DNA from: a virus
Direction: 5' to 3' (one strand)
Length of the DNA: 42,788 nucleotides
Virus record (IMG/VR): IMGVR_UViG_3300028836_000007
Coordinates: 1 to 42,788 of that record
In this document: positions 1 through 42,788 of the stretch, one piece after another
Layout of the letters: each line of letters opens with the position of its first letter
How positions within the stretch are numbered: position 1 is the first letter of the stretch
Program-made: the position numbers and the translations under genes
The notes under the pieces: model-generated
The model's database searches: none
What the model was told of the DNA's origin: nothing
The model's input: the letters and a program-made list of their open reading frames with translations, nothing else

Positions 1-1
1 A

Positions 2-184
2 GTAGAGGAAGATGACTTAGAGTTTTTCTCAAATGGTGTTAAATTAGTGGTGGATAAAAAGTCTCATGCACTAATAGACGGTACTGAGTTAGATTATGTC
101 AAAGAGGGTCTTAATGAAGGGTTTGAATTTTATAACCCTTTATCTAAGGCAAAGTGCGGCTGCGGGGAGTCATTTACGGTATGA
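2..184 (+). CDS. A-type iron-sulfur carrier (IscA/ErpA/HesB family), 3' end only
   Basis: The reading frame is open from base 2 and ends at a TGA, giving the last 60 residues of a protein. The fragment ends in [10 protein letters not shown]. This is the C-terminal Cys-Gly-Cys-Gly signature of A-type Fe-S carriers, preceded by the family's usual strand-rich stretch ([20 protein letters not shown]). These proteins bind a [2Fe-2S] or [4Fe-4S] cluster and pass it to apo-proteins in the cytoplasm. The first ligand cysteine normally lies about 65 residues before the CGC pair, so it is off the left edge. The stop overlaps the next start (ATGA). A tail protein further on (28350-29498) carries the four cysteines of a [4Fe-4S] cluster and is a possible client; that link is inference. 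Family assignment is good, the exact subtype is not. Confidence 0.85.
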
Positions 185-1984: not shown

Positions 1985-3136
1985 ATGGAAATAGGTTATG
2001 CCTTAAATACATTGTATTTCTTGGTGTCAGCAGTCCTCGTTATGTGGATGGCAGCAGGTTTTACAATGTTGGAAGCAGGGTCCGTTCGTTCTAAGAACGT
2101 AACAGAGATCCTTATTAAAAATGTCGCACTTTATAGTGTGGCGTCACTTACGTTCTTGTTAGTAGGATATGAATTAATGTACGGAGGCTGGAGTGCTCCA
2201 GAAGACCACGCATTAATGTCAGATTTCTTCTTCCAAGTTGTATTCGTAGCTACTGCAATGTCAGTAGTCTCAGGAGCAGTAGCAGAACGTAAAAAACTCT
2301 GGTCATTTTTAGCATTTGCAGTAATCTTTACTGCAGTGATTTACCCCATCCAAGGTTCTTGGTCTTGGGGAGGAGGATGGCTTTCAGAGGTAGGATTCTT
2401 TGACTTTGCAGGTTCAGGAATCGTGCATATGGCGGGAGCAGCCGCAGCTTTGGCAGCTGTACTACTCATTGGTCCAAGGAAAGGAAAGTATGTGGATGGC
2501 GTTGCCCAACCTATTCACGGTTCAAGTTCAACTCAGGTTGCTCTTGGAACACTTATTCTTTGGATGGGTTGGTTTGGTTTTAACGGTGGTTCACAGTTAA
2601 GTATTTTAGGGTTGGATAATGCGAATGCAGTAGCTCAAATCTTTGTAAATACTAATACGGCTGCAGCGGCTGGTTTATTAAGTGCAATGGTGTACTCCAA
2701 ACTTTGGTTAAAGAAGACCATTTTGAATGTCACTCTAAATGGTGCGTTAGCGGGATTAGTTGTTATTACAGCAGATCCTTTAACTCCCTCACCAGAAATC
2801 GCATTATTATATGGTGCTATTGGTGGATTGATCGTTCCTATCTCAATGTCTCTATTAGAGAAGTGGGGTATAGATGATCCAGTTGGGGCTATATCTGTTC
2901 ATGGTATCGCTGGTATTGTAGGTCTAATGTTAGTACCTATTTTAAATACTGGGGCCACCTTCGAAGGGCAGTTAATTGGTACAGGTGCAATCTTAGGATT
3001 CGTATTCGTATCTTCGCTAGCAGTATGGTATCTACTCAAACTAACGATTGGTTTGCGTGTAGGTGAAGAAGAAGAATTAGCAGGGTCGGATATGTGGGAG
3101 ACTGGGTCTTCAGCATACCCAGACTTTATGAAGTAA
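1985..3136 (+). CDS. amtB: AmtB/Amt-family ammonium channel
   Basis: A 383-residue polytopic inner-membrane protein with about 11 hydrophobic helices, the normal count for mature Amt. It conducts ammonium/ammonia into the cell. Key residues are in place: the twin histidines H148 (DFAGSGIVHMAG) and H306 (DPVGAISVHGIAG), the aspartate D140 eight residues before H148, the periplasmic phenylalanine pair F83/F87, the GWFGFNGGS helix, and a tryptophan near the vestibule (GSWSWGGGW). The cytoplasmic tail GLRVGEEEELAGSDM...SAYPD keeps the P-II (GlnK)-responsive region in outline, but the usual D-x-x-x-H-G-E segment reads DMWETGSS, so GlnK control may be altered. Unlike many bacterial homologues it has no obvious cleaved signal sequence. 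A weak AGGAA precedes the ATG. No promoter is visible after terminator 3, so expression may rely on read-through. Inverted repeats flank the gene. Confidence 0.95.
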   Translation: MEIGYALNTLYFLVSAVLVMWMAAGFTMLEAGSVRSKNVTEILIKNVALYSVASLTFLLVGYELMYGGWSAPEDHALMSDFFFQVVFVATAMSVVSGAVAERKKLWSFLAFAVIFTAVIYPIQGSWSWGGGWLSEVGFFDFAGSGIVHMAGAAAALAAVLLIGPRKGKYVDGVAQPIHGSSSTQVALGTLILWMGWFGFNGGSQLSILGLDNANAVAQIFVNTNTAAAAGLLSAMVYSKLWLKKTILNVTLNGALAGLVVITADPLTPSPEIALLYGAIGGLIVPISMSLLEKWGIDDPVGAISVHGIAGIVGLMLVPILNTGATFEGQLIGTGAILGFVFVSSLAVWYLLKLTIGLRVGEEEELAGSDMWETGSSAYPDFMK

Positions 3137-5090: not shown

Positions 5091-5276
5091 ATGAAGATAC
5101 TATTAATTTTTATATTTTTGTCCGGGTGTACTACGTTTTCAAGCACTAGTAATGAAACTACTACCCACGATGTAACTACTACAGAAAAAGTTATATATGA
5201 GGATATTGGCGTGGAGGAAGTGCCCGATATGGAAAAGATTTTAGAGGGTTTTACGCCCTCCTATTTATCATTCTAG
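5091..5276 (+). CDS. Small lipoprotein (unshifted product)
   Basis: 61 residues. TGGAG about 8 bases before the ATG. The N-terminus MKILLIFIFLSGC is a lipoprotein signal with lipobox L-S-G-C (C13), followed by a Thr/Ser-rich linker (TTFSSTSNETTTHDVTTT) and an acidic segment (VIYEDIGVEEVPDMEKILEG). The zero-frame product ends TPSYLSF 40 bases before phoH. A -1 shift at G GGT TTT would replace the last 7 residues with a membrane helix (see 5091-5317). Proximity to membrane genes would permit an outer-membrane spanin role, but it is Thr-rich rather than Pro-rich and I give no function. Confidence 0.75.
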   Translation: MKILLIFIFLSGCTTFSSTSNETTTHDVTTTEKVIYEDIGVEEVPDMEKILEGFTPSYLSF

Positions 5277-5317
5277 TATCAGCAGCTGTAGCCACTATTA
5301 GTACAAAAAGGGATTAA
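5091..5317 (+). CDS. Probable -1 frameshift product of the lipoprotein, with C-terminal membrane helix
   Basis: The zero frame contains the heptamer G GGT TTT at 5246-5252, which fits X XXY YYZ. A -1 slip continues at 5252 and adds YALLFIILVSAAVATISTKRD, a hydrophobic helix with a positively charged end, stopping at TAA 5315-5317, which overlaps the phoH ATG (TAATG). The -1 frame has no ATG, GTG or TTG between its previous stop (5198) and this end, so it is hard to explain as a separate gene. Translation join is 5091-5252 plus 5252-5317, 75 residues. GAGGG (5244-5248) can pair with CCCTC (5256-5260) around the site. A sequencing indel or a decayed gene is the alternative. Confidence 0.55.
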
Positions 5318-6027
5318 TGTCAAAAAAGAAAAAAATGACGGCGTCTAGCGCCATTTCTAAGTTAAATTTAAGTTTACAACCTATTGAAGCACTGACTAAT
5401 GCACAACAGTCTTTCTTCGACAATTATGATACCGGGAACTCTCAACTATTAATGGGATTCCCAGGTACTGGTAAAACATTCCTTAGCCTATATAAAGCCT
5501 TTCAAGACATTATATATGGGCAAATGGAAGTGCAGCAATTAGTGATAGTACGAAGCGCCGTCCCTACTAGGGATATTGGCTTCTTGCCTGGAAACCTTGA
5601 AGAAAAATCCCAGGTGTATGAATTACCATATAAAAAGATATGTTCGGAACTGTTTGGTAGAGACGATGCATACGAAATTCTAGTAAAACATGGAGTAATC
5701 CGTTTTATGATTACCTCTTATGTCAGAGGATTAACACTAGATAACTGTATTATAGTTATGGATGAGTTCCAAAACTGTACATCACATGAGGCTGACTCAG
5801 TATTAACTAGACTGGGTCAAAATTCTAAAGCACTGTTCTGCGGAGACTTTATGCAGACAGACTTTACTAAACGATCCGACAGAGATATCTGTAAGTTTGT
5901 GGAAGTATTAGAATCTATGCCAAACTGGTTTAGTGTAAATCATTTTGAAACTGAGGACATTGTTCGAAGTGGAATAGTAAAGGCGTACATACAAGCCAAG
6001 TACCTTATTCATAAGGATGGATATTAA
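5317..6027 (+). CDS. phoH: PhoH-like P-loop ATPase
   Basis: 236 residues, cytoplasmic. Walker A G47-FPGTGKT, Walker B CIIVMDEFQN (D149, E150), and the downstream LFCGDFMQTD sensor segment are all present in the usual order for the PhoH family. PhoH-like ATPases are very common in marine phages. The host protein belongs to the phosphate regulon and is linked to RNA metabolism, but the role in phages is not established. The start overlaps the stop of the frameshifted lipoprotein (TAATG). N-terminal residues 1-25 are basic and Ser-rich. The family call is firm, the function is not. Confidence 0.93.
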   Translation: MSKKKKMTASSAISKLNLSLQPIEALTNAQQSFFDNYDTGNSQLLMGFPGTGKTFLSLYKAFQDIIYGQMEVQQLVIVRSAVPTRDIGFLPGNLEEKSQVYELPYKKICSELFGRDDAYEILVKHGVIRFMITSYVRGLTLDNCIIVMDEFQNCTSHEADSVLTRLGQNSKALFCGDFMQTDFTKRSDRDICKFVEVLESMPNWFSVNHFETEDIVRSGIVKAYIQAKYLIHKDGY

Positions 6028-6034
6028 ATTATTT

Positions 6035-6193
6035 ATGTTTAGTAAATTAACAAGGTGTATAGCCGAAAAGAAGTGTTTTCAATCGTGGACTTGGGTAAAG
6101 TGTAAGTGTCTAGCATATGTAGTTAGTTGGATGGTATTAGCTCCACTTACAATCATAGCATTTGCACTATTTATGGATAAGGCGTTTTCATGA
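6035..6193 (+). CDS. Small membrane protein (52 aa)
   Basis: Begins MFSKLTRCIAEKKCF and has a basic, Cys-containing N-terminal part (five cysteines: TRCIAEKKCF, VKCKCL). One membrane helix follows at residues about 28-46 (AYVVSWMVLAPLTIIAFALF). The stop overlaps the next ATG (ATGA). An in-frame ATG at 6017 would add six residues; neither start has a good ribosome-binding site. The gene fills the gap between phoH and the protease. Function unknown. Confidence 0.6.
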   Translation: MFSKLTRCIAEKKCFQSWTWVKCKCLAYVVSWMVLAPLTIIAFALFMDKAFS

Positions 6194-6714
6194 AGACAAT
6201 ACTACAAGGATTAACATTAACACTATTATTATGGGTATCATTAGCACTAGGAGGTAAGTATGCCTACGCTCTAGACGACTTTGACTTAGCTAAATATGGG
6301 CCAACTGAAAAAGTTGACTTTCAGAGGTCTGAATTTATACTTAAGATTGTAACGTATACAAATAGAGACCGACTAAATCAGGCTTTTGAGAAAGCAACTG
6401 GTAAGCCACTACCTGAGGGTGCGGGGGTACGAGGATTCACTAATGTTAGACCCGATGAAGATATATGCTGGGTTCACATTATATTAGCCGATGTTTGGGA
6501 CGACAGAGAAGCGATGGCCATAATGGGCCATGAAGTATATCATTGTACCTTAGCAGATCACAGAGACGTAATGGTAGCTGAGGAGATACCAGAGGCTCCT
6601 AAAGATACTGCTATAAATGAAGTAGATATTGAAGATTTATATGCAGAAGACCGTCGGCTAGAGCTTGAGTGGTTAAAAGAAGATTATAAGAATATGGGAA
6701 TTGAGGTAGACTAA
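6190..6714 (+). CDS. Exported zinc-metalloprotease-like protein
   Basis: 174 residues with a signal peptide (residues 1-28, cleavage after YAYA). The mature domain carries H114-E-V-Y-H118 and a third histidine H124, i.e. HExxHxxxxxH, the spacing of metzincin zinc sites, although Leu121 replaces the usual glycine. The two histidine pairs and the Glu make a zinc site plausible. C55-region strands and C93/C119 may form a disulfide. It would act in the periplasm or outside the cell. Substrate unknown. It opens a run of exported proteins that are coupled by ATGA and TAATG overlaps; maturation of one of those neighbours is a reasonable guess but only inference. Confidence 0.7.
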   Translation: MKTILQGLTLTLLLWVSLALGGKYAYALDDFDLAKYGPTEKVDFQRSEFILKIVTYTNRDRLNQAFEKATGKPLPEGAGVRGFTNVRPDEDICWVHIILADVWDDREAMAIMGHEVYHCTLADHRDVMVAEEIPEAPKDTAINEVDIEDLYAEDRRLELEWLKEDYKNMGIEVD

Positions 6715-7271
6715 TGAATATAGCAGAGAAAGTAGCGATGGGATGGGTAATAGCAGTAGCATTATTGATATCATACGATGCTTATGCTCTAGATCCTATT
6801 GTTACAGACTCAACTACGAGAAGTACAGTACATTCGACAGGTGATGTGAAGACTACAGTTGTCTCCCCACCTCCCTCCGCTATTACACCCACATTTACGG
6901 GCAGTAGTAACTCAGATTCGTGTACTGTTGGTGTTGCGGGAGCAGTACAAACACAAATACTTGGTATTAGTGCTGGTACAACTACTAGAGACTTAAATTG
7001 TGAAAGACTAAAGAACGCTAAGACACTATATGATATGGGTATGAAAGTTGCCGCAGTATCTGTATTGTGTCAAGATGTAAGAGTATTTGATGCGATGCTA
7101 ATGGCAGGTACACCTTGTCCGTACAATGGCATTATTGGTTCAGACGCTAGAATTGCTTGGCAGAATGATAAGGATTCTAAACCTAAGAAGGAAAAGGAGG
7201 AAGGAGTTGACCCACTTAAATTACTTACTGGCATTGGCACTACTGTTCTCGGCCTCTTGTTCTTACTCTAA
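6714..7271 (+). CDS. Exported protein with C-terminal membrane anchor, conserved-type unknown
   Basis: 185 residues, TAATG-coupled to the protease. Signal peptide at residues 1-26 (GWVIAVALLISYDAYA). Then a Thr/Ser/Pro-rich stretch, a core with four cysteines (SDSCTVG, DLNCERL, VLCQDV, TPCPYNG) that could form two disulfides, a Lys/Glu-rich linker (KDSKPKKEKEEG), and a C-terminal hydrophobic helix (LLTGIGTTVLGLLFLL). The core YDMGMKVAAVSVLCQDVRVF looks like proteins I recall from marine T4-like phages without assigned function. The last 65 bases also encode the signal sequence of the next gene in another frame. Confidence 0.7.
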   Translation: MNIAEKVAMGWVIAVALLISYDAYALDPIVTDSTTRSTVHSTGDVKTTVVSPPPSAITPTFTGSSNSDSCTVGVAGAVQTQILGISAGTTTRDLNCERLKNAKTLYDMGMKVAAVSVLCQDVRVFDAMLMAGTPCPYNGIIGSDARIAWQNDKDSKPKKEKEEGVDPLKLLTGIGTTVLGLLFLL

Positions 7272-8082
7272 CTGGAATTACGGTACTACCGGTAATGCTG
7301 CTGAAGGAGGCCTAAGTTGGGGCATGCCTGACCTATTCCCTAAAGCTAATAACTTAATGGTTAATGGGGTGTTCTATCAGTATACTCCTATTAAGAATAC
7401 TGCAGATGATATGAAAGTACACGTGCAGAATGAAGATGCCATTAATGGAGGCTATATCTTTAGAGAAACAGATGATTGGAGTGGTAGACCCGGAGGTACC
7501 CCTATTAATAAAGTAATTGGAGTACCAAATGTACCTCAAGAATTATGGGGGGATGGCTCTATTGCTATAGAAGGAACCGGTACAGTAGAGGATGCTTCAG
7601 TAATATACAGCTATAAATATGACAATACTTGTGTAACCCCATTAGCAGATCCTTCTTGCCCTGGGTACGCCGAAGCACTATTAAATGCAATAAATAGTAT
7701 TCCAACTCCAGTAGTATACGATGCTTTAGAAGATGAGAATGTTCAAGATGCTCTAAATAATAAAACAGAGTTGAAGGAAGAGGATACCGAAGAGAAATCT
7801 GAGGAAGAGGAAGAAATAGATTTAGAGAACTTACTATCAGAGATTGATACAACTGTAATGTCAGCAACAGCACTGGCACAGAATCAATTAATGAGAGCAA
7901 TGACTTTATCCGTGAATGTAGATAGTTACTACAATAAAAAAATTCAAGGTGGTGTCTACAAAGAGACTCAGAGTTTAGTTGATAAACAGCTACCAGACAA
8001 TAATCGTGGGAAGAGAATGGGCCTAGCCCAGCAGGTACTACATACCGAAATGGTAAATATGCAGTACCTCGAAGGAGAGTAA
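7207..8082 (+). CDS. Acidic lipoprotein-like exported protein
   Basis: 291 residues from a TTG start that follows AGGAGGAAGGAG, the best ribosome-binding site nearby. Starting earlier would put basic residues in front of the signal. Residues 1-18 (MTHLNYLLALALLFSASC) make a lipoprotein-type signal, with Cys18 as the possible lipid site; the -3 position is Ser, not the typical Leu, so this is not certain. The middle is aromatic and Gly-rich (SNWNYGTTGN, LSWGMPDLFP), then a highly acidic segment (DTEEKSEEEEEIDLENLL), then a helical C-terminus (LAQNQLMRAMTLSVNVDSYY). Probably membrane-attached in the periplasm or outer membrane. Function not recognised. Confidence 0.7.
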   Translation: MTHLNYLLALALLFSASCSYSNWNYGTTGNAAEGGLSWGMPDLFPKANNLMVNGVFYQYTPIKNTADDMKVHVQNEDAINGGYIFRETDDWSGRPGGTPINKVIGVPNVPQELWGDGSIAIEGTGTVEDASVIYSYKYDNTCVTPLADPSCPGYAEALLNAINSIPTPVVYDALEDENVQDALNNKTELKEEDTEEKSEEEEEIDLENLLSEIDTTVMSATALAQNQLMRAMTLSVNVDSYYNKKIQGGVYKETQSLVDKQLPDNNRGKRMGLAQQVLHTEMVNMQYLEGE

Positions 8083-30208: not shown

Positions 30209-30855
30209 AGAAAGTAATACTTTACGGAGAATTAGCGGAAAAGTTCGGGAAGGAGTGGTCCTTAGATGTAACCTCGCCCGGCGAAGCTTTTAGAGCACTT
30301 GATGTTAATAATGTAGGATTTAGACAATTCGTAGCTTCTTCAGAAGAACGAGGTGTTGGCTATAAAGTAATAGTAGGAAAGTCTTATATTAATGACTATT
30401 CTGAGCTAGGACACCCTTCAGGGCGTCAAGAAATTAAAATAATACCTGTAATACTTGGAGCAAAAAATAAAGGCCTAGGCATGGTTCTTATGGGGATTGC
30501 TATTATTGCAGGTGTAGGACTTTACTATCAAATGGCTATGAATGCTTCTTTAGCAGCGGGTGGTCTTGGCGCGATACCTATGACTTTTGGACAAGGGTTG
30601 TCGTTGGCTATGGCTAGTCCTGTAGGCGCAATGGCAATAAAGTTCGGAGGAGCCTTATTACTAGGTGGAATAGCTTCTATGCTAGCTCCCACTCCTGAAC
30701 TCCCAGATACAGCTGATAAGCCTACAAACTATGGGTTCGATGGAGCAGCTAATACAGCTAGACAAGGTTATGCTATTCCAGTAGCTTACGGGCAATTATT
30801 AATAGGAGGAGCTGTTATAAGTTCAGGAGTTTCACCGGAGGATTATACACCATGA
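30202..30855 (+). CDS. Tail assembly protein gpI-like
   Basis: 217 residues from the ATG at 30202. An in-frame start at 30160 would overlap gpK by 49 bases without a ribosome site. The N-terminal ubiquitin-like part ([36 protein letters not shown]) and Gly-rich hydrophobic centre (LGMVLMGIAIIAGVGLYYQM, GGALLLGGIASMLAP) match lambda gpI. The C-terminal YGFDGAANTARQGYAIPVAY block is also typical. It helps tail tip assembly and may be cleaved by gpK. ATGA overlap with gpJ. Confidence 0.88.
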   Translation: MLKKVILYGELAEKFGKEWSLDVTSPGEAFRALDVNNVGFRQFVASSEERGVGYKVIVGKSYINDYSELGHPSGRQEIKIIPVILGAKNKGLGMVLMGIAIIAGVGLYYQMAMNASLAAGGLGAIPMTFGQGLSLAMASPVGAMAIKFGGALLLGGIASMLAPTPELPDTADKPTNYGFDGAANTARQGYAIPVAYGQLLIGGAVISSGVSPEDYTP

Positions 30856-33560
30856 GTAATAAAGATTGGATTAGAGGCGCCGGCGGCGGAAAAGGCGGTG
30901 GCGGTGGTGCACCTAAAGAGGATGATGATACGTTATTTTCGGATTCTAAAGCTAGAATTATTGATTTATTATCTGAAGGAGAGATAGTAGGGTTATTAAA
31001 TGCTGAAAAGTCTATTTACATAAATGAGACTCCGTTACAAGACTCTGCAGGTGGGAGTAACTTCGAGAATGTATCTTACATTACTAGAGAGGGCACCAAT
31101 TCTCAGAGTTATATACCAGGGTTTGCAGGAACAGAAACGGGAATAGGTGTTGGTATTATAGTAACTAAAGACGCGCCTGGAGCCCTAATCAAAACATTTT
31201 CGTCTACTACAGTAGATGCAGTAAGAGTTGTAATACATACACCAGCTCTTTTAGATGCGGACAATGATGAGGGAGACTTACATGGATCTACTGTATCCTT
31301 CAAAATTTGGTTAGAAAAGGATAATAATGGAGCCTGGTCTGAAGAAGTCACGGATTCTTTTACAGGAAAGACCTCCTCAAAGTACGAAAGAGCCTATAGA
31401 ATAGATATTCCTTGGACAGATTTTACTACTATAGCTATCAAAGTAGAAAGGACTAGCGATGACGCTACTTCTACAAAAGTATCGAATAAAATCTTTTTTA
31501 GTTCTTATACTAAAATTATAGATAATAAATTAACATACCCTAATAGTGCTCTAGTAGCCACGCAGATAGACGCTAGACAATTTACTTCTATCCCTAGTCG
31601 AGCATACGAGATAAAAGGAATAAAAATAAAAGTTCCTAGTAACTATACTCCTTACGACCCAGGTCATTGTTCATTATCTGGTTATAGACGTAAAGATAGA
31701 TGTTTGGATGCGGGAGGAGAATGGGCTCAAGGAACTTGCTCAAATAGTACTTATACTGATAAAACAGCTTGTGAACTTCCTGCTAATGGTTCTAATACTT
31801 GGACAAGCGCTGGCCTGAGTGGCGTAGATACTTTGTACTCCGGCTCGTGGGATGGTACATTTGATGTTGCATGGACTTGTAATCCTGCTTGGATTTTATA
31901 CGACCTATGTACTGATGACAGATACGGATTAGGTAAGTGGCTGTCTGCTAATCAGATGGATAAGTGGTCTTTATATGAGATTGGAAAGTATTGTGATGCC
32001 GTAGATAATGATGGAAAGTTTGTTGGAGTTGATGATGGATGGGGTAATAAAGAAGCACGATTTGCTTGTAATATGTATTTACAAGGAAGGGAAGAGGCTT
32101 TCAAAGTACTAAATGATATAGCCTCCTGTTTTAGAGGTATGATATACTGGCAACAAGGACAAGTTAGTTCTGTACAAGATGCACCTAAAGATCCAGTTAT
32201 GAATTTTTCAGATGCTAATGTTATTGATGGCAAATTTACTTATGAAGGAACTTCTAGGAAACAAAGACATAATGTAGCCCATGTTACTTGGAATAACCCC
32301 GAGGATTTTTATAGGCAAAATGTTGAGTATGTAGAGGATGCTCCAGGCATAGTTAATGCTAATAACCAGATTTTTTCTACCGATGTAATTGCTGTAGGAT
32401 GTACTTCACAAGGTCAGGCTCGTAGAGTAGGCAAGTGGATTTTATATACTGAAAGATACGAAACTGAAGCTATAACCTTTTCAACAGGTATGGAAGGTGC
32501 AGTAGTTAGGCCCGGAGACATTATTAAGGTAGCCGATTCCCATAAATCTGGTATTCGTTACGGAGGTAGAATTGCGACAGGTAAATGTATTGGAGGTACT
32601 TCTACTGGACTAGAGACTACTTCTGCTGCTTGTAGTGCAGTAAGTGGTACTTGGGATATTTCTACAACTACTACTATTAAATTAGATGCTCCTACCTCTG
32701 TTACTGCCCTTAAAAATTATAAGTTATCTCTGATTAATACAGAAGAGGCTTGTGTACGGTCTGGAGTTAAACAAGCTATTGCTGCTTTATCATGTAGCGA
32801 TGCTTCCTATAGTACAGAAGACACTTGCTTACAATCAGCAGGAACTTGTTCCGGAGGTACTGCTACAGGCTCTGAAAACTATGGTGCATGTATATGTATA
32901 ACAGATGCTATTTGGACTCCTACTAATACTTGGACTAGTCCACAATCTGTATGTTTAAATGCTCACGTAGATAACGAGTGGAAACCGTATGTGTGGGTAG
33001 AAACAAAAGATGTTAACTATGTATCAGTAACAGAAAAAGTAACAGAAATTACAGTGACCTCTGCATTCGCCAATACTCCTACCCCTAATTATATGTGGAT
33101 ACTAGAGGAGATGGGATCTGTAGAGGCTCAAGATTTTAGAGTATTAATGACTAGAGAGTCTGGTGCTAATATAGTTGAAATTTCAGCATTGAAATATCAT
33201 GGGGCGAAGTATGATCTGATAGAAAAGGATATAGCTTTCTCCTCTAAGTCTACCAGTAGCTTGCCTAATCCTAGTGATCCAATACCTTCCCCATCTAATT
33301 TAACTATTAACGAGGAATTGTATGTTGATTCAATGGGTAATGTTAAAAATAGAGCAGAGTTTTCTTGGGACGCCCCAAAAACTGCAGGTACATCAACTAC
33401 TTACCCATATATTGCATCTTACTATGTTGAATGGAGAAGAAAGGCACCTGCTATTACAAACTGGGTTTCTGTAGGGGAAACTTCAGCACAAAGTGTTATT
33501 ATTGATGATGCTCCAGCAGGTACGCTAGAGTTTCGAGTTAAAACAAGGAGAATTTTCTAA
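30852..33560 (+). CDS. Central tail tip protein gpJ-like, N-terminal cistron
   Basis: 902 residues. The start (GAGGGKGGGGGAPKEDDDTL, ARIIDLLSEGEIVGLL) is the hallmark of gpJ. Later FDVAWTCNPAWILYDLCTDD, the EAFKVLNDIASCFRGMIYWQ block and the fibronectin-like VEWRRKAPAITNWVS confirm it. Normal gpJ is about 1130 residues or more. Here a stop at 33558 falls in the fibronectin region (FRVKTRRIF), and the rest continues in the next cistron. Three regions (about 31650-31830, 32580-32670, 32785-32960) carry Cys-rich insertions including C-x10-C modules. gpJ binds the receptor and closes the tail tube. Confidence 0.93.
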   Translation: MSNKDWIRGAGGGKGGGGGAPKEDDDTLFSDSKARIIDLLSEGEIVGLLNAEKSIYINETPLQDSAGGSNFENVSYITREGTNSQSYIPGFAGTETGIGVGIIVTKDAPGALIKTFSSTTVDAVRVVIHTPALLDADNDEGDLHGSTVSFKIWLEKDNNGAWSEEVTDSFTGKTSSKYERAYRIDIPWTDFTTIAIKVERTSDDATSTKVSNKIFFSSYTKIIDNKLTYPNSALVATQIDARQFTSIPSRAYEIKGIKIKVPSNYTPYDPGHCSLSGYRRKDRCLDAGGEWAQGTCSNSTYTDKTACELPANGSNTWTSAGLSGVDTLYSGSWDGTFDVAWTCNPAWILYDLCTDDRYGLGKWLSANQMDKWSLYEIGKYCDAVDNDGKFVGVDDGWGNKEARFACNMYLQGREEAFKVLNDIASCFRGMIYWQQGQVSSVQDAPKDPVMNFSDANVIDGKFTYEGTSRKQRHNVAHVTWNNPEDFYRQNVEYVEDAPGIVNANNQIFSTDVIAVGCTSQGQARRVGKWILYTERYETEAITFSTGMEGAVVRPGDIIKVADSHKSGIRYGGRIATGKCIGGTSTGLETTSAACSAVSGTWDISTTTTIKLDAPTSVTALKNYKLSLINTEEACVRSGVKQAIAALSCSDASYSTEDTCLQSAGTCSGGTATGSENYGACICITDAIWTPTNTWTSPQSVCLNAHVDNEWKPYVWVETKDVNYVSVTEKVTEITVTSAFANTPTPNYMWILEEMGSVEAQDFRVLMTRESGANIVEISALKYHGAKYDLIEKDIAFSSKSTSSLPNPSDPIPSPSNLTINEELYVDSMGNVKNRAEFSWDAPKTAGTSTTYPYIASYYVEWRRKAPAITNWVSVGETSAQSVIIDDAPAGTLEFRVKTRRIF

Positions 33561-34667: not shown

Positions 34668-35588
34668 ATGGCAATACATGACTACAACATTTCTAATCAA
34701 TCATTTCCGGCAACTAGATCGGATATTAATAGCGCACTAGGAGCAATTTTATCCAGTAATAGTGATCAAAACCCCCCGTCTTTACCTAATTTCGCGCCAG
34801 TGGCAGGAACGCTTTGGTACGATACTAATAATAATATACTTAAAGTATACGATGGCTCAGCATTTGAAGAGATTAAATCAGGTGATATAGTAACCGGGGA
34901 TCTAACCGCTAACGCTGTTACTACAGTTAAAATTATAGATGATGCAGTAACAGCAGGTAAATTAAATGTATCCGGCAATGGTACTGCTACACAATTTTTA
35001 CGCTCTGATGCAGACGGATCTTTTTCTTGGGCCACTCCTCCAGATAATAACACTGTAACTTCTGCGGGCTCAGGACTTGATTTAGTTGGAGCTACACTTT
35101 CTGTACAGCCTGATCTTAGAGACGCTATGACTCATATAGGTAGAGATAATAATAACTATATTATATTTAATCCTGTAAATTTTGGGTTTTTCCTTGATGG
35201 CGCGGAGAGATTCAGAATGGAATCTGATGGAGATATGCACTGTGATGGCAGCGTAGTAGCTTATTCAGCTACAGTGTCTGATATGAACTTAAAGACTGCA
35301 ATTTCCACAGTTGATGGAGCCTTAGATAAAGTTTCACAGCTTAATGGAGTGGAGTTTACACGTAAGGATAGCGGTAAAAGATCTGCAGGAGTAATTGCTC
35401 AGGATGTGGAGAAAGTACTACCTCAGGCAGTAGTTGAAAGAAGTCTACCTTTACACACAGGAACTGAGGAAGTTTTTAAAACTGTAGAATATGATGCTCT
35501 GCATTCACTATACATCGAAGCTATTAAAGAGCTTAAAGATATGGTGGAAAAACAAGCAGTACAGATAAAAGAGTTACAAGGTACATAA
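34668..35588 (+). CDS. Tail fibre with S74 intramolecular chaperone domain
   Basis: 306 residues. N-terminal attachment part with GTLWYDTNNNILKVYDGSAF, a short shaft, and a C-terminal peptidase S74 (chaperone) domain of about 100 residues: SDMNLKTAISTVDGALDKVS with the Ser-x4-Lys pair and GVIAQDVEKVLPQAV, ending in a coiled coil (IEAIKELKDMVEKQAVQIKE). Such domains fold trimeric fibres and often cleave themselves off. Two bases separate it from the previous gene. It precedes a new promoter, so it is the last gene of the tail transcript. Confidence 0.88.
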   Translation: MAIHDYNISNQSFPATRSDINSALGAILSSNSDQNPPSLPNFAPVAGTLWYDTNNNILKVYDGSAFEEIKSGDIVTGDLTANAVTTVKIIDDAVTAGKLNVSGNGTATQFLRSDADGSFSWATPPDNNTVTSAGSGLDLVGATLSVQPDLRDAMTHIGRDNNNYIIFNPVNFGFFLDGAERFRMESDGDMHCDGSVVAYSATVSDMNLKTAISTVDGALDKVSQLNGVEFTRKDSGKRSAGVIAQDVEKVLPQAVVERSLPLHTGTEEVFKTVEYDALHSLYIEAIKELKDMVEKQAVQIKELQGT

Positions 35589-38141: not shown

Positions 38142-40928
38142 ATGTCAGACCATAAAATTAAACCTAAACGTACCACCACGTCTGGTGCAGCAGGTGTCCC
38201 AACTACTTCTAATCTAGAAGCGGGCGAAATCGCTATTAACTTAGCCGATAAAAAACTATTTGTTAGGGATACCTCTAGCAATATTCTAGAGCTAACAACT
38301 CGAACTATAGACTCACTAGACAATACTACCATTTCTTCCCCAGCTACTGGAGAAGTCTTGACGTATAATGCTGGCTCATCAAAATGGGAAAACAGTGGAT
38401 CAACTGCTGCAGTATGGGAAACTACGGAGCATATAGCTACCGCAGGTCAAACAGCTTTTTCAGCAGACTATACTGTAGGTAGCTTAGATGTATTCCTAAA
38501 TGGTATTCGATTAGATGCTACAGATTACACGGCATCTTCTGGTACTCTTGTAACATTGGACACCGGCGCAGCAGTAGGAGATACGGTCTATATTTCCTCT
38601 TACTCCATATCAGCTGGCGGGCTACCTTCCCAATCCGGGAATACTGGTAAGTACCTTACAACTGATGGTACTACCGCTACCTGGGCTTCTGTAGCAGCAG
38701 ATACTAATAATTATGTGGATTCCTTAGCCTTTAGTACCTCTACGGGGGTACTAACTGTAGGTCGTTCAGGTTCTTTAGGTGACTTAACTGTTGACTTAGA
38801 TGGTAAGTATGCTGAAAGTGGGCACACGCATGACTCAGTAAAAATACGAGATGCTAGAGCTGACGGAGATAAAACTCCAAATGACTACCCAGGCCAGCAG
38901 GCAACTTTTGAGTTTAGCGATGACTTAGTAGGTGGACCTGGGTCATGGGAATCTGCAATCACTATGAAAGGTTGGTCAGATAATTATAGAGTATGGCAAC
39001 TTAGAGCGGATTCAACAACTGGCACTGGAGACCAAAACTTATGGTTCAGAACTGGTAGTGGAACAAGTTGGGAAACCACAGACAAGCTTTGGACATCTGG
39101 TAACTTAACACCATTAGCGATAGGAACTACTAGTACTACTGCGTTAGCAGGTGACACTTCTTACTCTACCTTAGCGATAGGAACTACTAGTACTACTGCG
39201 TTAGCAGGTGACACTTCGCTTTTAGCAATAGGTGCATCATCTACCGATGCAGCAGCAGGTAATCATAATCATGATTCTGATTATTTAGAGCTCATACCAA
39301 ATACTATTGCTATGGGGTCAGATTATAGTACTGGATATACTAATTCTAGAATTACTATGATAGCCAGCCAGAGTAATTCTAGAGGTGCAGGAGTATTTGT
39401 ACATAATACAGCTTCAGATTATGAGTGGTTCTATGGTATGCCTTATTCCGCTAACGGTAACGCGTTTGCTATATGTAGTAAGTACACAACTGCTCACGAT
39501 GATGCTACTGCTGATAAGGCAAATGCTGAGTTTATAATTGACCAAAATGGCAATGTTGGTATTGGGACCACATCGCCTTCGTCTATTCTTGATGTAGATT
39601 CAGGTGCTTCAGGAACGGCTGCTTATTTAAAAATAGGAAATGCCGCTACAACTGGATATATAGGTGTAGCTGGAGATAATAATGTTTATTTAGGTAGTTA
39701 CACAAGTGATCAAGTAAGATTCGCTATTGGTACTTCTACAAAAATGACTTTAAGCACGGCTGGCAATTTAGGTATCGGGACGACTAATCCTTATAATAAA
39801 TTACATGTATACGGCACTGCTAGACTTGGCAATACTATGGTCGGTGATTCAGCTGCATCAAATGTACCATCTGCCCCATTACATATTAAGTCATCTGGCG
39901 TAAATGCTAAGATGAGAATAGAAGATTCAGACAGTTCTAATTTAGCCTTTGACTTCTTAGTTAACCATGGTTCTGGCTTCTCTATTATTGAAACTATAGG
40001 TGGCGATGCTGGTGATGATACTAGATTACATATTGCGGAAACAACTGGCAACGTGGGTATTGGGACGAGTAGTCCTGCACGAAATCTAGTTGTTAAGGGT
40101 AGTACGCCTCACCTTTCTATACTTGCGTCAAGTACAACTGATATTTGTTACTTAAACTTTGGGGATACTGACGATGACAATGTAGGGAGAATCGCATATA
40201 GTAATAATACGAACTCTATGGGTCTTTACACCAATGCCTCTGAACGTATGCATATCGACTCATCTGGCAACGTGGGTATTGGTACGAGTAGTCCTACTAC
40301 TAAATTAGACGTAGCAGGTACGGTTAGGGCCAGTACTATTACATCAACAGGTAATACTAATATCGGGGGTGAGTTAAACTTAACTGCCTCTGGTAATAAC
40401 TATGTAGACTTTGTAGATACTTTAAGAGTTAGAGCATATGGTTCTAGTCCCGCATATGAAGCCTCTATTACAGCATTTAAAGATGGTGCTGTAGATTTAG
40501 CACATAATGGTGTTAAAAGACTAGCCACAACCTCAACAGGTATCAGTGTTACTGGTAATATCACTGCTACTGGTACTATAACTGCGTACTACTCAGATGA
40601 AAGATTAAAGACCAATCTAGGAAATATAAGCTCTCCCTTGGATAAGGTACTAAAACTGAACGGATTTAACTATATAGAGAATAAACTAGCAAACTCTTTT
40701 GGGTATGACAGTACTAGCATACAGGTAGGTGTATCAGCTCAAGACGTGCAAAAGGTGTTACCAGCAGCAGTATCTATAGCTCCTTTTGATAGAGGTGAAA
40801 AGGGTTTATCTAAATCAGGAGAGGATTACTTAACAGTAGACTATGCTAAGATGGTACCTTTATTAATCGAAGCTATTAAAGAACTAAAAGAAGAGGTTGA
40901 CTCTTTAAAAGGAGCAAGAGATGAGTAG
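38142..40928 (+). CDS. Large tail fibre with S74 chaperone domain
   Basis: 928 residues; AAGGCGG 7 bases before the ATG. N-terminal module HKIKPKRTTTSGAAGVPTTS and LEAGEIAINLADKKLFVRD, a middle with VGSLDVFLNGIRLDATDYTA, then a 19-residue tandem repeat (LAIGTTSTTALAGDT, twice). Four blocks of GNVGIGTTSP type (near 39550, 39765, 40050 and 40270) follow. C-terminal S74 domain: YYSDERLKTNLGNISSPLDK with Ser-x4-Lys, VGVSAQDVQKVLPAAV, and a trailing coiled coil (LIEAIKELKEEVDSLKG). A trimeric fibre whose last domain guides folding and probably cleaves. Main receptor-binding candidate. Confidence 0.92.
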   Translation: MSDHKIKPKRTTTSGAAGVPTTSNLEAGEIAINLADKKLFVRDTSSNILELTTRTIDSLDNTTISSPATGEVLTYNAGSSKWENSGSTAAVWETTEHIATAGQTAFSADYTVGSLDVFLNGIRLDATDYTASSGTLVTLDTGAAVGDTVYISSYSISAGGLPSQSGNTGKYLTTDGTTATWASVAADTNNYVDSLAFSTSTGVLTVGRSGSLGDLTVDLDGKYAESGHTHDSVKIRDARADGDKTPNDYPGQQATFEFSDDLVGGPGSWESAITMKGWSDNYRVWQLRADSTTGTGDQNLWFRTGSGTSWETTDKLWTSGNLTPLAIGTTSTTALAGDTSYSTLAIGTTSTTALAGDTSLLAIGASSTDAAAGNHNHDSDYLELIPNTIAMGSDYSTGYTNSRITMIASQSNSRGAGVFVHNTASDYEWFYGMPYSANGNAFAICSKYTTAHDDATADKANAEFIIDQNGNVGIGTTSPSSILDVDSGASGTAAYLKIGNAATTGYIGVAGDNNVYLGSYTSDQVRFAIGTSTKMTLSTAGNLGIGTTNPYNKLHVYGTARLGNTMVGDSAASNVPSAPLHIKSSGVNAKMRIEDSDSSNLAFDFLVNHGSGFSIIETIGGDAGDDTRLHIAETTGNVGIGTSSPARNLVVKGSTPHLSILASSTTDICYLNFGDTDDDNVGRIAYSNNTNSMGLYTNASERMHIDSSGNVGIGTSSPTTKLDVAGTVRASTITSTGNTNIGGELNLTASGNNYVDFVDTLRVRAYGSSPAYEASITAFKDGAVDLAHNGVKRLATTSTGISVTGNITATGTITAYYSDERLKTNLGNISSPLDKVLKLNGFNYIENKLANSFGYDSTSIQVGVSAQDVQKVLPAAVSIAPFDRGEKGLSKSGEDYLTVDYAKMVPLLIEAIKELKEEVDSLKGARDE
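39114..39217 (+). repeat. Two exact 47-bp direct repeats in the fibre gene
   Basis: Copies at 39114-39160 and 39171-39217 are identical, with period 57 bp (19 codons). They encode LAIGTTSTTALAGDTS twice. The identity at every third base shows a recent duplication. A third, diverged unit follows (LAIGASSTDAAAGNHNH). Confidence 0.95.
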
Positions 40929-41415
40929 CAGAGCAAGAAGAATGGCAGACCTACTAGACAGTACGGGAGACGTCAAATTAGAAAATCTAGGGTATAAGTA
41001 TAACAATACAACTGGAGACTACGACGAGGACGAAGAGTCTGAAGGGTACGAAAAGAAAAGGAAAGCAAAAAAGAAGTCAAGAAAAAAGGCTAAGAGAAAT
41101 AAGGATAAAGTATACGTAGGTAACTCTATGGAGCTGGATGTGGACGAGGATCTGAACTTTATTTTAGATTTAACAAAACCGTCCACTACTATTAGTATGG
41201 ATAATTTGGACGAAGCCATAGGCTCTAGCGGTACTATTGTACTACAGCAAGACTCTTCAGGTGGGAGAAACTTTTCTCTAGCTACATATTTCAAAACACC
41301 ATTAGGTGGCGCAAGTATTGTACAGTATACAGCCCCTAATAGTGTGTCAACTTTAAACTATATTATACTGTCGGAAACCGAGGTATTGGTTAATTATATT
41401 GGTAACTTTGCATAA
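40921..41415 (+). CDS. Fibre-module protein with charged linker
   Basis: 164 residues with AAGGAG 8 bases before the ATG; it overlaps the fibre stop by 8 bases. Residues 1-35 are like the attachment part of fibres (ARRMADLLDSTGDVKLENLG). Residues 37-65 are a strongly charged linker: acidic (DYDEDEESEGYEKK) then basic (RKAKKKSRKKAKRNKDK). The rest is beta-rich (NFILDLTKPSTTISMDNLD, IVLQQDSSGGRNFSLATYFK, LNYIILSETEVLVNYIGNFA) and may be a capping or head domain. The stop overlaps the next ATG (TAATG), so it is coupled to the Thr/Ser repeat protein. Function unknown. Confidence 0.7.
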   Translation: MSSRARRMADLLDSTGDVKLENLGYKYNNTTGDYDEDEESEGYEKKRKAKKKSRKKAKRNKDKVYVGNSMELDVDEDLNFILDLTKPSTTISMDNLDEAIGSSGTIVLQQDSSGGRNFSLATYFKTPLGGASIVQYTAPNSVSTLNYIILSETEVLVNYIGNFA

Positions 41416-42788
41416 TGTTTGGATTTTTAGCGGGAATTTTAAGTTGGAATACGTCAGTATCCACTAATAGAAGTACTAATACTAGTCGTTCTACTAGTAA
41501 AAGTACTACTACGTCTTGGAATACCTCTAAAAATACAACAACTACTTGGAATACAAGTAAGGCTACAACTACTACATTTAATACTAGTAGAAGTACTAGT
41601 AAGTCTACTACAACGACTTGGGCTACTAGTAAGGCTACAACAACTACATATAATACTAGTAGGGCTACAACAACTACATTTAATACTAGTAGAAGTACTA
41701 GTCAGTCTACTACAACTACGTGGGCTACTTCAAAGAGTACGACTACTACATATAATACCAGTAGGGCTACCACAACTACATTTAATACTAGTAGAAGTAC
41801 TAGTAAGTCTACTACAACTACGTGGGCTACCTCAAAGAGTACGACTACTACATATAATACCAGTAGGGCTACAACGACTACATTTAATACCAGTAAGTCT
41901 ACTGTAACTACATATACTACCACTTGGTCTACTAGTAAGTCTACTACAACTACTTTTAGTACTAGTAAGTCTACTACAACTACGTGGAATACTAGTAGAG
42001 CTACAACAACTACATTTAATACGAGTAGAAGTACTAGTCAGTCTACTACAACTACGTGGGCTACTTCAAAGAGTACGACTACTACATATAATACTAATAG
42101 AGCTACAACGACTACATTCAATACTAGTAAGTCTACTGTAACTACATATACTACCACTTGGTCTACTAGTAAGTCAACCACAACTACTTTTAGTACTAGT
42201 AAGTCAACCACAACTACATGGAATACTAGTAGAGCTACAACAACTACATTTAATACTAGTAGAAGTACTAGTCAGTCTACTACAACTACGTGGGCTACTT
42301 CAAAGAGTACGACTACTACATATAATACTAATAGAGCTACAACAACTTCCTGGACTACAACATATAGTACTAGTAAGTCTACAACAACGACTTGGAATAC
42401 TAGTAGGTCTACAACTACAAGCTTTAATACTATAACTACTAAGTCTACTACTACTACATATAATACTAGTAGAGCTACAACAACTTCGTGGACTACAACA
42501 TATAGTACTAGTAAGTCTACAATAACGACTTGGAATACTAGTAGGGCCACGACAACGACTTGGAATACTAGCAGGGCTACAACGACTACTTGGAATACAA
42601 GTAGAAGTACTTCTAGGGCTACAACGACTACTTGGACTACTACCTATGCTACTAGTAGAGGTACTTCTAAGTCTACAACGACTAACTATACTACAACATG
42701 GAATACAAGTAAGAGTACTTCTAAGTCTACAACGACTACTTGGACTACTACCTATGCTACTAGTAGAGGTACTTCTAAGTCTACAACG
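41415..42788 (+). CDS. Thr/Ser-rich repetitive protein, partial (open to window end)
   Basis: 458 codons with no stop to the end of the window, starting at the ATG in TAATG overlap with the previous gene. The N-terminus MFGFLAGILSW is hydrophobic. From residue 12 on the chain is a repeat of about 10 residues: an aromatic residue (W, F or Y), N/A/S/T, T-S, K or R, S or A, then T-T-T-T, for example WNTSKATTTT. I see no Asp, Glu or Cys in it; all charges are Lys or Arg, so the protein is very basic. Larger units are present (102 bp, 234 bp). It is probably an extended, fibrous, surface-exposed protein at the end of the fibre operon. Its true length is unknown. Low-complexity antisense frames are shadows. 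Confidence 0.85.
   Translation, partial: MFGFLAGILSWNTSVSTNRSTNTSRSTSKSTTTSWNTSKNTTTTWNTSKATTTTFNTSRSTSKSTTTTWATSKATTTTYNTSRATTTTFNTSRSTSQSTTTTWATSKSTTTTYNTSRATTTTFNTSRSTSKSTTTTWATSKSTTTTYNTSRATTTTFNTSKSTVTTYTTTWSTSKSTTTTFSTSKSTTTTWNTSRATTTTFNTSRSTSQSTTTTWATSKSTTTTYNTNRATTTTFNTSKSTVTTYTTTWSTSKSTTTTFSTSKSTTTTWNTSRATTTTFNTSRSTSQSTTTTWATSKSTTTTYNTNRATTTSWTTTYSTSKSTTTTWNTSRSTTTSFNTITTKSTTTTYNTSRATTTSWTTTYSTSKSTITTWNTSRATTTTWNTSRATTTTWNTSRSTSRATTTTWTTTYATSRGTSKSTTTNYTTTWNTSKSTSKSTTTTWTTTYATSRGTSKSTT
41577..41882 (+). repeat. Three tandem 102-bp units in the Thr/Ser-rich gene
   Basis: Units begin at 41577, 41679 and 41781, each 34 codons from one FNTSRSTS to the next. They read FNTSRSTS-K/Q-STTTTWATSK, then A/S-TTTTYNTSRATTTT, with only a few amino-acid differences and more synonymous ones. 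Confidence 0.9.
41883..42350 (+). repeat. Two tandem 234-bp units in the Thr/Ser-rich gene
   Basis: Units 41883-42116 and 42117-42350 encode 78 residues each, identical except the last (T/S). They start FNTSKSTVTTYTTTWSTSKS. Differences between copies are almost all synonymous. Confidence 0.92.

Follow-up and report, generated by a model that had tools for sequence, protein, structure and literature searches.

In Gram-positive bacteria, serine-rich repeat glycoprotein loci of the GspB/PsrP type encode a very long Ser/Thr-rich adhesin next to its own glycosyltransferase, GtfA/GtfB, which works with UDP-GlcNAc. Mycobacteriophage virions are glycosylated by phage-encoded glycosyltransferases that act on virion proteins. 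In Maravista, glycosylation of the capsid has been suggested from two glycosyltransferase genes (PMC11256854). Sialyltransferases and retaining Kdo transferases share a conserved (K/R)XHP motif, and the Kdo transferase KrkA (GT140) holds the CMP phosphate through His227, Ser271 and Ser272, i.e., with Ser at H+44/45 (PMC12887879); the retaining Kdo transferases of GT99 and GT107 also carry QxxxD, the motif of the nucleophilic Asp (PMC10148158).

The locus described here resembles the serine-rich repeat loci in that a repeat protein has a linked glycosyltransferase-like gene (in 55/55 and 43/45 non-redundant enzyme loci of relatives; the window itself ends earlier), but it belongs to a phage, is built on Thr instead of Ser, places aromatic and basic residues every few positions and is paired, in relatives, with a putative enzyme of the CMP-sugar type. 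The serine-rich repeat model NF033849 is the only NCBIfam entry that the window protein touches (E=5e-4), by composition, scoring 17.6 bits where the cut-off is 650. Relative to the mycobacteriophages, in which the capsid is the suggested target, it has a dedicated repeat fibre protein, and the fold class of its enzyme differs. What stands out most as new is that a hitherto unrecognised phage family of CMP-sugar-type glycosyltransferases is almost always linked to an alternating, Thr-rich protein of the fibre type. We put the probability that a distal tail-fibre protein is O-glycosylated by a dedicated phage-encoded glycosyltransferase at roughly 0.6. An earlier note on this DNA had named the Thr-rich protein a candidate for glycosylation; this is now the hypothesis that we favour most, given that a glycosyltransferase-like gene accompanies the family with hardly an exception.

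The window, i.e., the whole stretch of DNA analysed, is a single linear virus record in IMG/VR, 42,788 bases long. It comes from a marine tailed phage whose T5-like large terminase shares about 50% identity with its counterparts in T5-type phages that infect Vibrio, Serratia and other hosts. A shared gene direction runs from the tape measure through the tail tip, two S74-chaperone fibre proteins and a 164-aa adaptor to the Thr-rich ORF (Table 1). The gene for the 928-aa fibre protein overlaps the start of the adaptor gene, whose stop overlaps the Thr-rich start in a genuine TAATG (...GCATAATGTTT...), and the placement at the end of the fibre operon is borne out: the Thr-rich gene lies directly 3' of the adaptor, with S74 fibre and tail-tip genes further 5'. 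An HMM built from 24 adaptor C-termini of relatives matches window positions 40909-41412 (E=3.3e-32), and the same domain stands 5' of the Thr-rich genes in L018, L020, L029, L040, L066 and other loci, ending in ..LVNYIGDFA in relatives and LVNYIGNFA in the window. The acidic/basic linker of the window adaptor, once proposed as a contact for the Thr-rich protein, is not seen at the C-termini of the other adaptors; what is conserved is the C-terminal domain, on which the N-terminus of the Thr-rich protein would presumably dock. A degenerate scan of viral contigs with the window adaptor alone gave 0 matches; an alignment of 14 adaptors does retrieve viral contigs. The fibre of phage S37C6 (BAQ94345) occupies the same slot behind the adaptor domain (HMM E=3e-14) but is a non-repetitive protein of 1231 aa that is not Thr-rich and has no linked enzyme.

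Table 1. Coordinates of the fibre genes in the window and of accessory genes in cassettes of related loci (numbers preceded by L).
Feature	Position	Strand	Remarks
Tip attachment protein J-like tail protein	30852..33560	+	PF24801 E=1.2e-30, PF13550 E=2.1e-28; marks the tail-tip module 5' of the fibre genes
First S74-chaperone fibre protein	34668-35588		Same direction as its neighbours
Tail fibre protein, 928 aa, with C-terminal Peptidase_S74 (chaperone of endosialidase)	38142..40928	+	PF13884 E=1e-12; PHROG long tail fibre families to 2.7e-27
Adaptor protein, 164 aa, charged linker and conserved C-terminal domain ending LVNYIGNFA	40921..41415	+	
Thr/Ser-rich repeat protein, 458 codons, no stop before the contig end	41415..42788	+	Relatives by tblastn
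108-bp tandem repeat, 1.8 copies, 95% identity, containing the contig end	42591..42788	+	
Methyltransferase	L021:2390-2968		Accessory gene in cassette
Radical SAM protein	L089:1646-2677		Accessory gene in cassette
GT8-like protein	L028:6328-6999		Accessory gene in cassette
Spermidine-synthase/methyltransferase-like protein	L098:3046-3603		Accessory gene in cassette; weak match, E=0.029

The Thr-rich frame is indeed open to the final base of the window. Its product consists of 46% T, 19% S and 7% N, with 46 aromatics, 45 K/R/H and 0 D/E, P or C; the absence of acidic residues emphasised by the earlier note is thus true of this protein and fails as a rule for the family, whose other members contain 0-6% D/E. 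The ten-residue unit is real, 26 clean decamers reading [WYF]-[NSA]-T-[SN]-[KR]-[SA]-T-[TVI]-T-[TS]; positions 3, 7 and 9 are T in all 26. Most aromatics lie 4, 10 or 14 residues apart (distances of 12, 24 and 2 also occur), and 44 of the 45 gaps are even, a figure that 0 of 2000 shuffles matched; all 44 K/R counted share the parity of the aromatics, and N, S and A fall on the other. Since the gaps are even and K/R keep the aromatic parity, a two-residue alternation is the deeper rule and the decamer its commonest form. The protein has two faces, one with aromatic, basic and Thr residues and one with small residues; the charged face claimed before holds only in part, since the basic residues share their side with aromatics and Thr, and the sugar- or LPS-binding role suggested for it is conjectural. 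The same parity recurs in 84 distinct ORFs of relatives, where even spacing holds for 4764 of 5520 aromatic gaps (47% in shuffles). Even-length insertions of any size preserve both faces, a condition for an extended beta strand.

Tandem duplications of recent origin (30, 102 and 234 bp) could be taken for the expansion of low-complexity junk with no selected protein function. The 26 decamers, however, represent 15 peptides from 23 distinct DNA sequences and differ by 938 synonymous and 929 non-synonymous codon changes, position 3 being the most variable (557/904/1278). The repeat is therefore coding and not a product of simple DNA slippage, and because the units vary mainly at codon position 3, the protein pattern is under selection. 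The synonymous excess, the parity across distinct ORFs, the conserved ends and the linkage described below already contradict the junk explanation and leave it a negligible chance.

Both the strictness of the two-residue alternation and the S74 chaperones fused to relatives speak for a beta-type structure. The beta-solenoid suggested earlier gains no support from AlphaFold, which for the 458-aa fragment and 8 relatives gave an all-beta but unusable result (pLDDT 45, pTM 0.40), the monomer model being uninformative. The regular Thr arrays recall beta-helical antifreeze proteins, and Foldseek ranks an RTX antifreeze protein first for the repeat model (E=1.2), so one may envisage, in place of a host-binding fibre, a solenoid with ice or some other regular surface as its ligand. 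This match carries no weight, given the pLDDT of 45 of the model; alternation with gaps of 4 and 14 does not hold to a fixed solenoid turn, and Caulobacter phages also have the cassettes, which makes an ice-binding role very improbable. Under the O-glycosylation reading, the long fibre body would consist of extended beta strands, probably in a homotrimer, one side bearing the aromatic, basic and Thr residues and the other the small ones (N, S, A and T). Searches of Pfam, PHROGs and the PDB matched no family to the window protein or to its close marine relatives.

Near-identical repeats are a typical stopping place for short-read assembly. The contig halts inside a 108-bp repeat at 95% identity, and the gene is therefore probably truncated by assembly: the contig would carry the first half of a long Thr-rich gene, its open end most likely an assembly break. 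A BLAST search of phage records with the Thr-rich protein and DNA found none, a result that the low-complexity filter renders uninformative; relatives were confirmed by tblastn in viral contigs, and more Thr-rich genes were found adjoining them. Complete relatives are about 160-1700 aa long, share an N-terminal style (..GF....W-NTSVSTNRST; MFGFLAGILSWNTSVSTNRST in the window) and often show a ..T-x-FY motif at the C-terminus. The window protein has the N-terminal pattern ..W-NTSVSTNRST in common with the complete relatives L037, L046, L050 and L052.

In these relatives, the adaptor domain is followed by the Thr-rich gene and then by a protein of about 300 aa that belongs to phrog_26179/phrog_30602, families filed under unknown function and present in at least 439 viral contigs; in L018, for example, the Thr-rich gene spans 5172-6893 and the enzyme gene 7001-7897. 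With a Thr-rich stretch defined as T >= 0.30 over 80 aa within 4.5 kb 5' of the gene for this putative enzyme, such a stretch was found upstream in 98/100 non-redundant loci and downstream in 0/104. Among the loci retrieved with enzyme alignment A1 (80 fetched, of which the 55 non-redundant ones with enough upstream DNA were counted), the figures are 55/55 upstream and 0/51 downstream; among the divergent enzymes of set A3, mostly 27-60% identical to the query, they are 43/45 and 0/53. The two A3 misses are L102, where the contig starts before the place in question, and L121, i.e., Caulobacter phage Cr30, in which the enzyme is preceded by a short Tyr/Thr protein; L056 scored positive through a collagen-like GTSGTSG stretch. 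Anchored on the adaptor, with near-duplicate contigs kept, the enzyme comes next in 55/55 complete Thr-rich genes that have at least 1.5 kb behind them, and two Thr-rich/S74 fusions are likewise followed by it. No enzyme was found at adaptors with another distal gene (L228, L229 and phage S37C6). From the adaptor-anchored counts, the enzyme gene is expected just past the contig end, and the phage of the window probably possesses one. In bacterial genomes, the enzyme alignment found a single contig, a phage contig inside a MAG, and no bacterial origin was traced; in the literature, nothing identifiable as a description of the cassette was found.

The AlphaFold model of the enzyme (pTM 0.81, pLDDT 80) has as its nearest PDB neighbours KpsC (Z 10.6), WbbB (9.6) and KrkA (9.3), over 201-223 residues, and a bacterial polysialyltransferase (8.7). 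These top four all use CMP-sugars, with unrelated GT-B proteins next at Z 7-8; the comparison supports a GT-B fold nearest KpsC/WbbB/KrkA, and a Z near 10 speaks for the fold, not for the reaction. In sequences retrieved without use of the motif, (K/R)xHP is present in 48/48 adaptor-anchored enzymes, 45 of which also have an [ST]E pair at H+42 to H+44, comparable to the Ser at H+44/45 of KrkA. The enzyme thus shares fold and (K/R)xHP with KpsC (GT107), WbbB (GT99) and KrkA, but it is only about 300 aa long, is 10-14% identical to them, adjoins a phage Thr-rich gene and not a capsule locus, and lacks QxxxD, which precedes the His in 1/48. Membership in GT99, GT107 or GT140 was rejected for this last reason. 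None of the sequence libraries names it a glycosyltransferase, the best Pfam hint being to a polysialyltransferase at E=0.025.

The absent nucleophile motif would also suit a reading in which the Thr-rich protein is a plain beta fibre stalk and its neighbour a catalytically dead chaperone or assembly factor. Fibres commonly require dedicated chaperones, and some relatives bear S74 domains. A dead enzyme, however, need not keep the (K/R)xHP donor-site motif and the [ST]E step over deep divergence, and the gene is retained at loci that already have an S74 chaperone; we regard loss of catalysis as rather improbable.

Under the O-glycosylation reading, the Thr-rich gene would encode the distal part of the tail fibre, and the GT-B enzyme would transfer a CMP-activated sugar, Kdo or a sialic-acid-like one, to many fibre Thr/Ser before or during assembly. 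Gram-negative hosts generally offer Kdo as a donor. The sugar coat might protect the fibre against proteases, help a protein so rich in Thr to stay in solution, or mimic or grip host surface glycans. Against this reading count the absence of the enzyme gene from the window, the lack of QxxxD and of a glycosyltransferase name in any sequence library, the unusable model of the repeats, the position of the KVP40 pair outside the fibre operon, and the partners in DLP6 and Cr30, which are not typical Thr-rich proteins. A search for virion proteomics or glycan data on cassette phages found none.

The enzyme might alternatively act on the host, modifying LPS or capsule, e.g., to block superinfection, while the Thr-rich protein serves as a fibre stalk, host glycan being the common theme. 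The structural neighbours KpsC and WbbB build capsule and LPS, and other glycosyltransferase-type genes lie near some cassettes (GT8-like, L028). Yet the linkage is to the protein class and not to the fibre module, since adaptors with other distal genes lack the enzyme and the KVP40 group retains the pair outside the fibre operon; the sampled enzymes, moreover, mostly have no strong hydrophobic segment (maximum hydropathy over 19 residues 1.16 on average, 3.05 at the highest). We consider a host-directed enzyme unlikely.

Further domains and genes accompany the cassette. Peptidase_S74, which serves trimeric fibres and spikes of phages as an intramolecular chaperone, forms the C-terminus of the Thr-rich relatives L235 (E=4.8e-13) and L098 (E=7e-6), and a Hint/intein-like C-terminus is found in L060 (TIGR01443, above cut-off) and, weakly, in L012. 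The window copy ends before its C-terminus, and such maturation domains are known from relatives alone. Where two Thr-rich proteins stand in tandem, the first has a Hint/intein-like C-terminus (L012:5947-9297, L009:1521-4970, L013:3004-5955, L060:2580-3731); this domain could possibly mediate self-cleavage or cross-linking of the fibre. In some loci, accessory genes (Table 1) are inserted after the Thr-rich gene and before the enzyme, or separate two Thr-rich genes, as would be expected of a modification cassette.

More broadly, and with slightly less than even confidence, we propose a widespread, undescribed form of phage O-glycosylation in which a small GT-B family would attach CMP-activated acidic sugars (Kdo or nonulosonic acids) to hundreds of Thr/Ser on an alternating beta fibre, at times aided by methyltransferase, radical SAM or GT8-type helpers, so that the fibre bears host-like sugars. 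The linkage offers a testable function for the Thr-rich protein and the enzyme family alike, and it would account for fibres that tolerate 60% Thr+Ser. If true, glycosylation of receptor-binding fibres would change what sequence can tell about the host range, adsorption and fibre stability of marine phages, and two adjoining genes would supply a compact substrate-enzyme pair for glycoengineering.

Cultured phages also have the pair, which makes the proposal testable now. Caulobacter phage Lullwater encodes the fibre, the Thr-rich protein and the enzyme as gp40, gp41 and gp42, and Caulobacter phage DCM has the same trio as gp42-43-44. In Vibrio phage KVP40, the Thr-rich protein is.0254 and the enzyme.0256; in Vibrio phage QD01, they are QD01_260/262. 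Lullwater and KVP40 thus resemble the relatives in having the Thr-rich and phrog_26179/30602 proteins close together (in Lullwater, with the fibre), but their Thr-rich proteins are shorter (215 and 197 aa) and annotated just as hypothetical, and in Lullwater aromatic parity is weak (15/33 gaps even). In Stenotrophomonas phage DLP6, the enzyme is preceded by a Hint-containing protein (Hint assigned by eye) that is not Thr-rich. In the KVP40-type phages examined, the pair (L256:7152-9698 in KVP40) adjoins QueC-like, nicotinamide phosphoribosyltransferase-like and radical SAM genes, outside the fibre operon. A frame scan revealed unannotated Thr-rich ORFs in Vibrio phages F86 (L258:4795-5403), D484 (L261:4204-4758) and D479 (L262:4209-4754); small spurious ORFs are annotated in their place, and the Thr-rich family is therefore hidden from databases.

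The contig also carries host-type genes. At its start lie the end of an IscA/HesB-type Fe-S protein (window 1-182, PF01521 E=8e-8) and an Hsp20 gene (462-893, E=2e-16). A 300-aa protein encoded at 1004-1906 has a signal-peptide-like N-terminus and a porin-like look and ends in ..FSAKITVAF; it had no match in a Pfam search and lies immediately 5' of amt. PhoH is encoded at 5317-6027 (E=2e-40). The most unusual gene of this group is amt itself, which encodes the ammonium transporter AmtB at 1985-3136 (PF00909 E=1e-90).
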